From: Clostridia bacterium | GTDB taxonomy: Bacteria > Bacillota > Clostridia > DUPQ01 | Length of the DNA stretch: 34,892 nt | Assembly (NCBI GenBank): GCA_016938455.1 | Contig: JAFGUQ010000248.1 | Location: 1 to 34,892, forward strand | Direction of reading: 5' to 3' | Shown: positions 1,998 through 6,446 of the stretch, in pieces | Layout of the letters: each line of letters opens with the position of its first letter | Numbering within the stretch: the stretch's first letter is position 1 | The notes under the pieces: generated by a model | What the model was told of the DNA's origin: nothing | Database searches by the model: none | What the model saw: only the letters and a program-made list of their open reading frames with translations | Position numbers and translations under genes: made by a program

Positions 1998-2873
1998 ATG
2001 ATGATTGAAAAATTAGCAGAAGTATTCAAACGTGAAGGAGCAAATGTCATCAGATACGCATGGTATCAGAATGGCATCATAAAAGGACATGAAATGGTTT
2101 CTTCCTATCCATGCTCAAACTGTTACTCGATATCCAAGAACTTCACTGCAACTGCAATCGGTATTGCCTATGATATGAATCTTCTTGATGTGGAAGATGA
2201 TATAGTTAAATATTTTGAAAACGAAATACCACTTAAACATGATCAAAACCTTTACAAAGTAAAAATAAAACACTTGTTGTCTCAGACGATGGGAATCGCT
2301 GCAGGAAATCTTTTTGAGAGTGACCGATATACCCACGGAACTGATGACTTCATTTCTGTTGCTTTATCTTCTGATATTCCATATGAGCCGGGCAAAAAAA
2401 TGGTTTACAGTAATTCGACTTATTATCTTTTATCCTGCATCATTGAAAAAGTCTCCGGTATGACCATGAACCTTTTTTTACAGAAATATTTATTTTCTAA
2501 AACAGGAATCAACAGCTATTCATGGGAATGCTGTCCAAAAGGACATACAATGGGAGCCACAGGATTGTATCTGTCAACCACTGATATGTTGAAGCTTGGT
2601 ATCTTATATATGAATAAGGGGATCTTCGAAGGGAACAAGATTCTCAGTGAGAAGTGGGTTGATATGGCCACGGTGAAAAGAGCGGGGGATGTGGACAATC
2701 CGACTGCTTTCAGTTTCTGGTTCAACGATGAAGGGGGATACAGAGGAAGCGGTGCCTATGGACAGCTGCTACTGGTTTATCCATCAAGGAAAATGGTGTT
2801 TGCTGCTCATTCTTTTGATTCGAATCATAATATCTATCAGATAACCAGTAAGTTTCTGAAAGAGGTCAATTAA
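1998..2873 (+). CDS. Serine hydrolase, beta-lactamase (class C/PBP-like) family
   Basis: A 291-residue member of the serine beta-lactamase-like superfamily, which includes penicillin-binding proteins, esterases and peptidases. The SxxK motif is SISK at residues 44-47 (nucleophile Ser44), the YxN motif is YSN near residue 135, and GSGAYGQ in the C-terminal half takes the place of the KTG/HxG motif. There is no signal peptide, so a cytoplasmic esterase or amidase is likelier than a secreted beta-lactamase. ATG codons at 1998 and 2001 are both possible, and the ribosome site is weak. Only 13 bases separate it from the tRNA terminator and I see no promoter of its own, so expression may depend on readthrough from the tRNA unit. 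The substrate cannot be told. Confidence 0.85.
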   Translation: MMIEKLAEVFKREGANVIRYAWYQNGIIKGHEMVSSYPCSNCYSISKNFTATAIGIAYDMNLLDVEDDIVKYFENEIPLKHDQNLYKVKIKHLLSQTMGIAAGNLFESDRYTHGTDDFISVALSSDIPYEPGKKMVYSNSTYYLLSCIIEKVSGMTMNLFLQKYLFSKTGINSYSWECCPKGHTMGATGLYLSTTDMLKLGILYMNKGIFEGNKILSEKWVDMATVKRAGDVDNPTAFSFWFNDEGGYRGSGAYGQLLLVYPSRKMVFAAHSFDSNHNIYQITSKFLKEVN

Positions 2874-2913
2874 AAACTGAGTTTAAATTAATCAGATTAA
2901 TCATGATAATTCA

Positions 2914-2942
2914 TTGACTGAGGCAAATCAGAGTGATACAAT
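2914..2942 (+). promoter_or_regulatory. Promoter of nrdJ
   Basis: TTGACT (-35, 2914-2919), a 17-bp spacer and TACAAT (-10, 2937-2942) with an upstream TG at 2934-2935 (extended -10). The predicted start is near 2949. The -10 lies inside the first NrdR-box-like palindrome. The direct repeat TTAATCA at 2888-2894 and 2897-2903 lies just upstream of the -35. Confidence 0.8.
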
Positions 2943-2983
2943 ATATTGTACTAAAGAAAAATACAAACCACTAAATATAGTGG
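2936..2983 (+). promoter_or_regulatory. Tandem NrdR boxes controlling nrdJ
   Basis: Box 1 (2936-2951) has the core CAATATATTG inside the perfect palindrome TACAATATATTGTA (2937-2950). Box 2 (2968-2983) has the core CTAAATATAG inside the 7-bp inverted repeat ACCACTA/TAGTGGT (2967-2984). Both fit the NrdR box consensus as I remember it (acaCwAtATaTwGtgt). The 16-bp gap and 32-bp centre spacing, about three helical turns, are those known for NrdR tandem sites. Box 1 covers the -10, so binding would repress. The assignment to NrdR is by inference; nrdR itself is not in the window. Confidence 0.75.
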
Positions 2984-3001
2984 TGCGTTGAGGGGGATAT
3001 C

Positions 3002-5242
3002 ATGAAACTATCTGATAATGCAATTAAAGTCCTTGAAAGAAGATATTTAGCAAGGAATGAAGCCGGTGAAGTCGTTGAAACACCGGATGAGCTCTTTAAA
3101 AGAGTCGCACATGCAATCGCTTTGGCAGACGACGGTTTTTTAAGTGAAGATGAAATCAAAGCATCGGAAAATGATTTTTATAATATGATGATCAATCTTG
3201 AGTTTTTACCAAACTCACCAACATTGATGAATGCCGGGAGACCTCTTGGTCAGCTATCAGCTTGTTTTGTATTGCCCATCGAAGATTCCATGGAGTCCAT
3301 TTTTGAAACAATCAAGAACGCCGCACTGATTCATAAGAGTGGTGGAGGAACAGGATTCAGCTTCTCAAGAATCAGATCAACCGGTGCTACAGTGAAAACA
3401 ACCGGAGGAGTGGCAAGTGGTCCCATAAGCTTCATGAAAGTTTTTAATGCCGCCACAGAAGCAGTGAAACAGGGAGGAACAAGACGAGGGGCCAACATGG
3501 GAATTCTAAGAGTTGACCATCCTGATATTTTGGCATTCATCTCCTGTAAACAGGACAATGTGGAAATTACCAATTTCAATATCAGCGTTGGAGTGACAGA
3601 GAAATTCATGCAGGCAGTTGAAAGCGGAGAGGACTATGACCTTATCGATCCATATACCAAAAAAGTGGTTACCCGATTAAATGCAGAGAAAGTTTTCAAT
3701 GCCATCGTGGAAAACGCATGGAATAATGGAGAACCTGGAATAATTTTCCTTGACCGTATTAATAAAGAAAATACTGTACCAGGTGTCGGCGAAATAGAAA
3801 GCACAAATCCTTGCGGAGAACAACCGCTGCTTCCCTATGAGTCATGTAATCTTGGTTCTATCAATCTCTTTACTATGCTTAATCAGGAAAAAACTGATTT
3901 TGATTATGAAAAACTGAAGAAAACAGTGATGAAAGCAGTTCACTTCCTTGACAATGTCATTGATGTCAATAAATATCCTCATAAAATGATTGATCAGATG
4001 ACAAAAGCCACCAGAAAAATAGGGCTAGGAGTCATGGGGTGGGCAGATGCATTATATGCCATGAAAATTCCGTACAGTTCACAAGAAGCAGCAGAACTTG
4101 GCAGAAAAATCATGAGATTCATTAATAATGAATCAAAAAAGGCATCCATCAATCTGGCAGAACTAAAAGGTGTTTTCCCCTATTATGATAAGAGTGTCTT
4201 TAAAGAACAGCAGATCAGAATAAGAAACGCCACCACTACTACCATTGCACCAACAGGAACATTAAGCATTATTGCTGATGTATCCAGTGGTATTGAACCT
4301 GTTTTTGCATTGTCATATATCAGGAATGTCATGGATAATGACCAGCTGGTTGAAGTTAATTCTATTTTTAAACAAGCATTAGAAGATTCTGGAGATTATT
4401 CTGAAGAACTCATGAGAAAAGTAGCTGAAGAAGGAACGATTTCTCACATGAAAGATTTTGACCAGAGCATTAAAGATGTTTTCGTTACAGCTCATGACAT
4501 TTCACCTGAGTGGCATATTAAGATGCAGGCGGTTTTCCAGGAAAGCACTGATAATGCCGTATCAAAAACAGTTAATCTGAAGAAAGAAGCAACAACAGAA
4601 GATGTCAAGGATGTTTTTTTGCAGGCTTATTCATTAGGCTGTAAAGGAGTGACATTATACAGAGACGGTTCAAGAGATTCACAGGTTCTTAATATCGGGA
4701 AGGTCAATGGTAAAACGACCAGCAGCGACCATAATCCCAGACCAAGACCCGAAGTCACCACCGGTTTCACACAAAAATACAAAATCGGGTGCGGAAATCT
4801 TTATGTGACTGTTAATTCAGATGAAAACGGAAATATTTGTGAAGTATTCACTAATACCGGAAGAGCAGGCGGTTGTCCATCTCAGTCAGAAGCGACAAGC
4901 CGTCTGGTATCCATTGCACTGCGTTCAGGTGTACCGACAAAAGAAATTGTTGATCAGCTAAAAGGAATCAGATGTCCTTCAACCATCAGACAGAAAGACC
5001 TTAAGGTATTATCCTGTCCTGATGCCATCGGGAGACTGATTGAAAAAGTTGAAAAAATGAACGGTGAAAAGGAATCAAAAGAATTTAAGGCATTTGACAA
5101 CGAAAAAGCAGTGGAAGTTAAAAAAGCACCTGTCGCAGTTGTTGATAAATTCACCAGACTATGTCCAGAATGCCATCAGGAGATGGAGCATGAGGGTGGT
5201 TGTGTGATGTGCAGATACTGCGGGTATTCCAAGTGCGGTTAA
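3002..5242 (+). CDS. nrdJ: Adenosylcobalamin-dependent (class II) ribonucleoside-diphosphate reductase
   Basis: Makes deoxyribonucleotides using a radical generated from coenzyme B12, so it works with or without oxygen. The 746 residues show Cys88 and Cys282 (likely redox pair), the radical-site motif NPCGE at 269-273 with Cys271 and Glu273, and YESCNLGS. A TSCPD-type domain follows (about 590-690, with GRAGGCPSQ and the later CP motifs) and a cysteine-rich tail (CPEC near 723 and CVMCRYCGYSKC at the end) that probably relays electrons or binds zinc. The ATG at 3002 follows AGGGGG at 2991-2996. It is transcribed alone from an NrdR-type promoter; I see no cobalamin riboswitch in the roughly 50-base leader. 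Confidence 0.96.
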   Translation: MKLSDNAIKVLERRYLARNEAGEVVETPDELFKRVAHAIALADDGFLSEDEIKASENDFYNMMINLEFLPNSPTLMNAGRPLGQLSACFVLPIEDSMESIFETIKNAALIHKSGGGTGFSFSRIRSTGATVKTTGGVASGPISFMKVFNAATEAVKQGGTRRGANMGILRVDHPDILAFISCKQDNVEITNFNISVGVTEKFMQAVESGEDYDLIDPYTKKVVTRLNAEKVFNAIVENAWNNGEPGIIFLDRINKENTVPGVGEIESTNPCGEQPLLPYESCNLGSINLFTMLNQEKTDFDYEKLKKTVMKAVHFLDNVIDVNKYPHKMIDQMTKATRKIGLGVMGWADALYAMKIPYSSQEAAELGRKIMRFINNESKKASINLAELKGVFPYYDKSVFKEQQIRIRNATTTTIAPTGTLSIIADVSSGIEPVFALSYIRNVMDNDQLVEVNSIFKQALEDSGDYSEELMRKVAEEGTISHMKDFDQSIKDVFVTAHDISPEWHIKMQAVFQESTDNAVSKTVNLKKEATTEDVKDVFLQAYSLGCKGVTLYRDGSRDSQVLNIGKVNGKTTSSDHNPRPRPEVTTGFTQKYKIGCGNLYVTVNSDENGNICEVFTNTGRAGGCPSQSEATSRLVSIALRSGVPTKEIVDQLKGIRCPSTIRQKDLKVLSCPDAIGRLIEKVEKMNGEKESKEFKAFDNEKAVEVKKAPVAVVDKFTRLCPECHQEMEHEGGCVMCRYCGYSKCG

Positions 5243-5262
5243 AGTTTATGTATAAATTATAC

Positions 5263-5285
5263 AAAAATATGCATATATTTTTATT
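5263..5285 (+). terminator. Possible weak terminator after nrdJ
   Basis: AAAAATAT (5263-5270) pairs with ATATTTTT (5275-5282) around a GCAT loop, followed by a short T/A-rich tail. It contains no G-C pairs in the stem, so its strength is doubtful. Confidence 0.35.
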
Positions 5286-5295
5286 TAATATTAAG

Positions 5296-5323
5296 TAGAC
5301 ACTTAAAGGTATTATGATATAAT
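5296..5323 (+). promoter_or_regulatory. Promoter of the small orphan gene
   Basis: TAGACA (5296-5301), a 16-bp spacer and an extended -10 TGATATAAT (TG 5315-5316, TATAAT 5318-5323). Confidence 0.65.
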
Positions 5324-5365
5324 ATTAGTTGAGTGATAATCACAATTGATTGGAGGAGTTTATAA

Positions 5366-5701
5366 ATGGCAAAGAAAATAACAAAAAATATAATTGCAGT
5401 TAAGGATTTTGAAAACACAGCAAAAAAAATAGCATCAGGTGCATTAAGAATGGATAAAGAACCAAGTGTATATAAAAGTCTTTTTGATAATGTAATGTTC
5501 TCATGTGATAATGTAGACGAACTAAAGAAATTCATTAAGCAGAATAAATTCAAAAGTAAAGATTGCATGCATTATTGGGAAGGCCTCATTGTTGGCGGAA
5601 GCACACTGATTACTACTACTTATGATACAACAGATGAAAACTTTGTTGAGAATACATGTGACAATAACAACTTGATTTATATAGCAAACTGGATTAAATA
5701 G
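5366..5701 (+). CDS. Hypothetical protein, 111 residues
   Basis: I do not recognise this protein. It starts at ATG 5366 behind a strong GGAGGAG (5352-5358), has its own promoter and ends before a clear terminator, so it is a real single gene. The N-terminal half is lysine-rich and probably helical (residues 1-65, with DELKKFIKQNKFKSKDCMHYW). The C-terminal half is short and beta-prone (LIVGGSTLITTTYDTT). It has no signal peptide or membrane segment and only three cysteines, without a clear metal-site pattern. It lies between nrdJ and a convergent protease gene, and nothing nearby points to its role. It is probably a small cytoplasmic protein of restricted distribution. Confidence 0.75.
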   Translation: MAKKITKNIIAVKDFENTAKKIASGALRMDKEPSVYKSLFDNVMFSCDNVDELKKFIKQNKFKSKDCMHYWEGLIVGGSTLITTTYDTTDENFVENTCDNNNLIYIANWIK

Positions 5702-5722: not shown

Positions 5723-5756
5723 AAACCTCTTTTTAATACTTAAAGAGGTTTTTTTA
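5723..5756. terminator. Strong hairpin terminator between convergent genes
   Basis: AAACCTCTTT (5723-5732) pairs perfectly with AAAGAGGTTT (5742-5751) around a 9-base loop, followed by T residues through 5756. On the plus strand it ends the orphan gene. On the minus strand it lies just after the stop of the PrsW gene, where it may also act, but with a shorter U tract. Confidence 0.85.
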
Positions 5757-6446
5757 TTGCTCGTTTATATGGCGTTCCTTTGACAATTTGTAAAACCTTG
5801 TCAGTTTTTTCATATTATAAACCCATAGAAAAATGACATAAGGCAAAAAGATGAACAGGAAACTCATGTTTGTCATTAAAATGAAGTTGAAAAGACCATG
5901 GATAATGACAGGATAGATAATTGATTTACTTAAATATTTCTTCTTGTCTTTTTCATTATCTGTAAATTTCGCCATTGAAAGATAATAACCCATGGTAATA
6001 GCGAAGAGCATATGTGCAGGAACTGACAATAATCCTCTGATTACCCCCAGATTGGTAGTGGTAGCGGATTGAAATATCAGATATAGAATGTTTTCTATGG
6101 CAGCAAATCCCAATGAAGCAAAAGCACAGTAAATAATACCGTCAAGTTTTTCGTCAAATGCCACATGATTGTAAGCTACTTTTAAAACGATTTTACGTTT
6201 AAATGATTCTTCAATAAATCCTGCAATAAAGAACGTTTCAAAGATCACAGCTACAATTCCAGTGAAAATATTGAATCGCATAAAAAGATTTTCGAGAAGA
6301 ATGACCGGCAACGCTGACAGAAATCCATAAAGAAACAACTTGAAAAGCAGTTTAACAGGTTCTTTATCATACCGGTCTGTAAGATAAAGAAACGCAAGTA
6401 ACAGAAAAACAGGAATTAATGCTGTAATGATTAGTTGTACAATCAT
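5754..6446 (-). CDS. PrsW-family intramembrane metalloprotease
   Basis: A 230-residue polytopic membrane protein. Family signatures are EESFK (Glu79-Glu80 to Lys83), FDEKLDGIIY (97-106), LGFAAIENILY (112-122, with Glu118-Asn119), His145 in a membrane helix (VPAHMLF) and His183 in HGLFNF. These match the glutamate and histidine motifs of PrsW, which in Bacillus subtilis makes the first cut in the anti-sigma factor RsiW. About seven to eight hydrophobic segments are visible. The ATG is at 6446, with GGAGG near 6456-6460 on the minus strand. No sigma/anti-sigma pair is next to it, so its substrate is unknown; membership of the wider Abi/CAAX protease group is the main alternative. Confidence 0.86.
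   Translation of the reverse strand: MIVQLIITALIPVFLLLAFLYLTDRYDKEPVKLLFKLFLYGFLSALPVILLENLFMRFNIFTGIVAVIFETFFIAGFIEESFKRKIVLKVAYNHVAFDEKLDGIIYCAFASLGFAAIENILYLIFQSATTTNLGVIRGLLSVPAHMLFAITMGYYLSMAKFTDNEKDKKKYLSKSIIYPVIIHGLFNFILMTNMSFLFIFLPYVIFLWVYNMKKLTRFYKLSKERHINEQ

Follow-up and report, generated by a model that had tools for sequence, protein, structure and literature searches.

Tandem NrdR-like boxes at a class II ribonucleotide reductase promoter and a candidate pair before ftsZ–nrdR in an uncultured clostridial lineage

The original comparative study of NrdR is reportedly that of Rodionov and Gelfand (2005). According to the excerpts of later work on which this comparison draws, dATP together with ATP is required to form the DNA-binding NrdR tetramers and two boxes are necessary (PMC12051234; PMC9110341); dATP by itself does not give good DNA binding by NrdRs, which is obtained only when ATP (or ADP) is also present (PMC9110341; PMC12051234). 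NrdR operators have integer helical turns between the box centres, commonly with a spacer of 15–16 bp; in the four NrdRs studied, binding was tightest with 15–17-bp spacers, and a second spacer optimum lies near 24–27 bp (PMC12051234). Control by NrdR of its own gene is frequent (PMC9110341).

Two described systems come closest to the locus considered here, the nrdJ gene in a window of 34,892 nucleotides (the whole stretch of DNA that was analysed) from a Clostridia bacterium genome assembly, which is fragmented (301 contigs) and 91.5% complete. As excerpted from PMC12051234, the nrdDG operator of Listeria monocytogenes has, like that of nrdJ, two boxes, a 16-bp spacer and an overlap with the RNA polymerase site; its box 2 lies 13 bp from the start codon, compared with 18 bp at nrdJ, and it serves a class III reductase with measured binding, whereas nrdJ encodes a class II enzyme and its operator is predicted from sequence. 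In Streptomyces coelicolor (PMC9110341, in excerpt), dual boxes precede a class II nrdJ, as they do in the window, but nrdR and nrdJ form one operon there, whereas nrdR of the window's genome follows ftsZ on another contig.

The box pair at the nrdJ promoter

The features of the locus, in window coordinates, are as follows.

2914–2919, + strand: -35 element TTGACT of the nrdJ promoter (consensus scan)
2934–2942, + strand: extended -10, with TG at 2934–2935 and TACAAT at 2937–2942 (consensus scan)
2936–2951, + strand: predicted NrdR box 1, ATACAATATATTGTAC, over the -10 (sequence; pair conserved)
2952–2967, + strand: 16-bp spacer between the boxes (sequence)
2967–2984, + strand: possible 7-bp RNA hairpin over box 2 with a 4-nt loop, probably incidental (fold; pair counts)
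2968–2983, + strand: predicted NrdR box 2, CCACTAAATATAGTGG, in the presumed 5' leader (sequence; pair conserved)
2990–2996, + strand: ribosome-binding site GAGGGGG (read from sequence)
3002–5242, + strand: nrdJ, vitamin B12-dependent (class II) ribonucleotide reductase, 746 aa (NF006417, TIGR02504, Pfam)

The original prediction, made from the DNA letters, placed two palindromic NrdR-like boxes before a class II reductase gene, and both parts are confirmed. The encoded protein scores above the curated cut-offs of NF006417 (1190.7 bits; cut-off 961) and TIGR02504 (736 bits; cut-off 399.95), also passes the general alpha-subunit model TIGR02506 (370.8; cut-off 341.05), and contains the reductase N-terminal, barrel and TSCPD domains of Pfam. 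A B12 riboswitch before nrdJ was considered and rejected, as the only Rfam match in the window at the gathering threshold was a tRNA. The surroundings comprise a tRNA-Pro with a TGG anticodon (1852–1927), a beta-lactamase-fold (serine hydrolase) gene (1998–2873) and a PrsW-like protease gene on the minus strand (5754–6446); further along, a long run of open reading frames of about 120–415 aa, mostly on the same strand, occupies 13167–34813.

Against the NrdR box consensus, which we take to be ACACWATATNTWGTGT, box 1 carries 3 mismatches and box 2 carries 2 (better strand), with the cores intact in both. The two centres are 32 bp apart, in keeping with the integer-turn spacing rule of PMC12051234, and the promoter scan and gene family together place the pair at the promoter of a reductase gene. 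That box 1 covers the -10 was likewise correctly foreseen: TACAAT lies inside the box, in a promoter-like arrangement TTGACT-17-TACAAT that matches the consensus at 10 of 12 positions (scan of 2914–2942). As this arrangement is one of 13 promoter-like matches in 2700–5500, where shuffled sequences gave a mean of 9.0, the promoter call alone is weak. Judged from the position of the -10, transcription should start near 2949, which would place box 2 within the leader, 18 bp 5' of the ATG at 3002.

The rarity of such sites depends on whether one box or two are considered. Single boxes are not rare: the window holds 12 at up to 3 mismatches from the degenerate consensus, only about twice the 5.17 expected, with 12 or more in 4 of 100 shuffled sequences. 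If single matches are taken as the measure, the pair might be put down to chance resemblance in AT-rich DNA. At up to 3 mismatches the two-box pattern CWANATNTWG-N22-CWANATNTWG (150 sites per strand) is not commoner than its reversed control (232). With 0 mismatches, the same pattern has one site in the 2,988,528 bases of the genome, the nrdJ pair, and the next sites listed carry 2 mismatches. A matrix trained on nrdJ pairs, the window's own included, gave this pair a score of 36.1, compared with less than 15 for every other 31- or 32-bp pair in the window, and no pair scored 19.8 or more in 4 Mb generated by a Markov model of the window's composition. Together with the conservation across genera described below, this leaves chance with a negligible probability.

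Recurrence of the pair before nrdJ

Upstream regions were compared at 22 nrdJ loci, namely the window and 21 of 29 relative loci (from L008–L036); L026, L027 and L031–L036, which are partial or distant matches, were left out, and the second nrdJ copy of genome G009 yielded no locus. A pair at 31–32 bp scoring at least 24 was found at 18 of the 22, in a mechanical count that includes L016, where the top-scoring pair stands in a different register from the one aligned with the other loci. When these 22 regions were resampled with a Markov model, 3 of 4400 sequences gave such a score, and none of 4400 gave a score of at least 26, which 14 of the 22 loci attain. Box 1 lies 59–72 bp 5' of the start codon at 13 of the 22 loci, and elsewhere at -92 (L017), -75 (L018), -155 (L019) and -107 (L028). 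Four loci (L012, L025, L029 and L030) have no 31–32-bp pair scoring at least 24; in L029 and L030 (38% identity) the match begins at residue 53 or 62, so that their start codon is only extrapolated. At the family level the pair is present at 8 of 9 nrdJ loci, and no nrdJ locus was obtained from the family genomes G001 and G010. G009 itself carries near-equal nrdJ matches at C35:146–2392 and C29:5719–7965, possibly a duplication or a mixed assembly (6% contamination).

The motif TGATACAAT recurs before nrdJ of relatives. L012 retains the TGATACAAT promoter without the palindrome, which points to the palindrome as a constraint apart from the -10. Conservation also extends to the right half of box 1, which the -10 does not cover.

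The second box was also predicted to form a 7-bp RNA hairpin. Folding reproduces this structure, but the leader folds only modestly better than its shuffles (z -1.62), and 13 of 200 of these fold equally well. Box 1 could then be no more than an extended -10 and box 2 a leader hairpin that tunes messenger stability or translation, with NrdR uninvolved. Beyond the predicted fold, this explanation draws on co-variation of the box-2 arms, in which two-sided changes affect 4 of 7 pairs and 68.1% of cells are paired across 13 sequences (a covariation score equalled or bettered by 4 of 500 shuffles), and on the absence of two-sided changes from box 1. However, a palindromic protein site yields the same covariation pattern. 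All seven pairs are complete in just 4 of the 13 sequences (the window, L008, L009 and L011), with six in L010, and these all come from the nearest two genera, whereas more distant relatives keep box 2 without the hairpin. The conserved right half of box 1 and the constant spacing of 31–32 bp also speak against a promoter element and a hairpin alone, and we give that explanation little probability. The idea that box 2 serves chiefly to form a hairpin was rejected, as full pairing is confined to the nearest two genera; the predicted fold stands, as a lineage-limited feature that is probably, though with low certainty, a by-product of the palindrome.

The repressor gene and the other reductase operons

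The original prediction depended on the presence of nrdR in the genome, and its absence is now excluded: nrdR lies at C190:18057–18509 on the minus strand, on a different contig from nrdJ, and its product matches TIGR00244 over the full length at 188.1 bits (cut-off 124.65). Residues 1–148 align with solved NrdRs, presumably those of E. coli and S. coelicolor. The protein retains D15 and R17, residues named in the excerpted text of PMC9110341 as reading the sequence, and its Y131 corresponds in the alignment to Y128 of the S. coelicolor protein. The nucleotide contact K69 of S. coelicolor NrdR is replaced by isoleucine.

Class I (nrdA–nrdB, on C124) and class III (nrdD, on C195) reductase genes accompany nrdJ in the same genome. 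The proposed check of other reductase operons found candidate pairs before both, in each case the best over twelve spacings. At nrdA (L167, G000:C124; G000 is the window's genome) the candidate boxes, at -67 and -25, are 42 bp apart with a 26-bp spacer and score 10.2 and 7.6 by the matrix; at the other two of the three nrdA loci with a full-length match (G001 and G034), the pairs are 41 bp apart with sums of 27.7 and 21.3. The nrdD pair is weak in the window's genome (sum 15.2, with one box at only 1.8). Stronger nrdD candidates occur in members of the family, namely G003 (23.5), G002 (20.3), G004 (27.5; 32 bp) and G008 (26.9; 31 bp), and nothing was found in G029 and G025, among the 12 of 30 loci examined. 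The four-turn nrdA candidate resembles the long-spacer operators of Streptococcus pneumoniae; in contrast to that species, the window's genome would combine three-turn pairs (nrdJ, ftsZ–nrdR) with a four-turn pair (nrdA), a mixing of spacers that also occurs in Streptococcus suis (both as excerpted from PMC12051234).

A different palindrome-binding regulator might own sites that merely resemble NrdR boxes, as the match to the consensus is one of sequence. Such a regulator would have to explain a pair that stands before a reductase gene in many genera, with similar pairs 5' of the other two reductases and of ftsZ–nrdR, and we consider it very improbable.

The boxes are very probably an NrdR operator at the nrdJ promoter, through which NrdR loaded with dATP and ATP would repress nrdJ. 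Nucleotide dependence, tetramer binding and repression are extended to this locus by analogy with published NrdRs. As dATP accumulates, NrdR would load dATP and ATP and assemble into a tetramer, whose two zinc-ribbon pairs would hold the boxes across their spacing of three helical turns; the bound tetramer would cover the -10 and the presumed transcription start, switching nrdJ off. When dATP drops, ATP-loaded NrdR would adopt forms that bind DNA poorly, and nrdJ would be expressed. The dATP-sensed repression of nrdJ first predicted is thus supported in outline by the presence of nrdR and the recurrence of the pair, with one amendment: dATP alone would not suffice, as published NrdRs need dATP and ATP.

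A sequence-only model of the pair (R1) was also used to scan seven genomes. In G000, where 150 of 2362 first-look candidates were scored, it returned 14 matches, with nrdJ alone significant (E 1.2e-11). The ftsZ site (E 0.0897) ranked below C108:3018 (E 0.052) and C28:17358 (E 0.0556), and nrdD (E 0.263) below C291:10297 (E 0.149). Given the share of candidates scored, this outcome is no proof of further targets, nor does it exclude them. At two other places the neighbouring genes were named by eye. At C210:12451 a single strong palindrome, which we do not count as an NrdR operator, is flanked by a gene for a phosphonate-type transporter and one that is fucosidase-like. Two sister-genus genomes carry NrdR-box-like pairs (L234, G006:C180:6436; L232, G004:C193:5495) that follow the end of a polC-like gene and lie on the stretch separating it from a gene for an ABC-transporter ATPase.

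A candidate pair before ftsZ and nrdR

In the window's genome nrdR follows ftsZ head to tail, with 20 nt from the end of ftsZ to the start of nrdR, and a candidate pair with boxes 31 bp apart lies before ftsZ on the minus strand (L001:2883–2929, equivalent to G000:C190:19766–19812). The pair begins 122 bp 5' of ftsZ and, by the matrix, which was not trained on ftsZ sites, scores 22.2 in G000, 20.0 in G003 and 19.8 in G001. All 3 of the 3 same-genus genomes whose upstream region is covered thus show a conserved integer-turn pair before the nrdR-containing operon; in G002, the fourth genome of the genus, the contig breaks off 31 bp 5' of ftsZ. A Markov model with the composition of the ftsZ intergenic stretch gave scores of at least 19.8 10 times in 4 Mb, or about 0.0003 per 122 bp. 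Box 1 of this pair begins on the TAG that terminates the upstream gene, and TGTACA-17-TATAAT follows downstream, placing the pair just 5' of the presumed -35. The species share the box cores but diverge in the spacer and at the variable W positions. The 31-bp two-box pattern, whose second half was loosened after the ftsZ sites were known, has the ftsZ site as its sole perfect match in each of G000, G001 and G003; at up to 2 mismatches it is only slightly commoner than its reversed control, which counts against the site, as does the low significance of ftsZ in the R1 scan (E 0.0897).

The distribution of the pair is narrow. In G004 and G008, the two sister-genus genomes open to this comparison, where nrdR follows ftsZ too, no pair was found before ftsZ, and among 29 scannable ftsZ loci the next best scores after the three were 11.6 (L065) and 10.0 (L067). 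At the 30 nrdR loci, among 55 genomes with an nrdR match, that were scanned over up to 1500 bp upstream (less than 1500 bp at L260, L261, L263 and L272), scores above 10 occurred only in G000, G001, G003 and G031, the last with a pair scoring 24.0 at -70 of nrdR itself. NrdR autoregulation by way of the ftsZ promoter thus seems to have arisen recently, in the host genus.

The ftsZ pair predicts an NrdR autoregulation that would include ftsZ. We put at about even the chances that NrdR also controls ftsZ in the host genus, such that high dATP would lower the reductases, NrdR and FtsZ together; this joint lowering would tie the dNTP pool to division. The nearest described arrangement is that of Clostridium beijerinckii, where nrdR is also near ftsZ, in a spoIIGA-sigE-sigG-ylmC-nrdR operon downstream of ftsA/ftsZ, and where the authors speculate that sporulating cells might use NrdR to repress normal division (PMC6362236, in excerpt). 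Sporulation genes separate ftsZ from nrdR in that species, whereas in the window's genome nrdR directly follows ftsZ and the box pair precedes ftsZ. For Clostridioides difficile, an excerpted table on sporulation marks nrdR as lowered in a sigE mutant (PMC3789822). In the available portions of the open-licence papers, including PMC4898720, PMC3781837, PMC6925170 and PMC6362236, we found no description of NrdR boxes before ftsZ.

The predicted nrdJ operator is an ordinary NrdR operator of a switch type already known, and adds an uncultured lineage to those with this well-understood dNTP feedback. As the genome offers one NrdR candidate operators of both three and four turns, it bears on the relation of spacing to repression strength. 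The more promising lead is ftsZ–nrdR, outside the window, rather than nrdJ. Should that site prove real, the amount of the division protein FtsZ would be under the direct control of a sensor of the nucleotide pool. This would give a mechanism for the suggestion printed for C. beijerinckii (PMC6362236, in excerpt) and connect the supply of DNA precursors with cell division in a simple way that can be tested.
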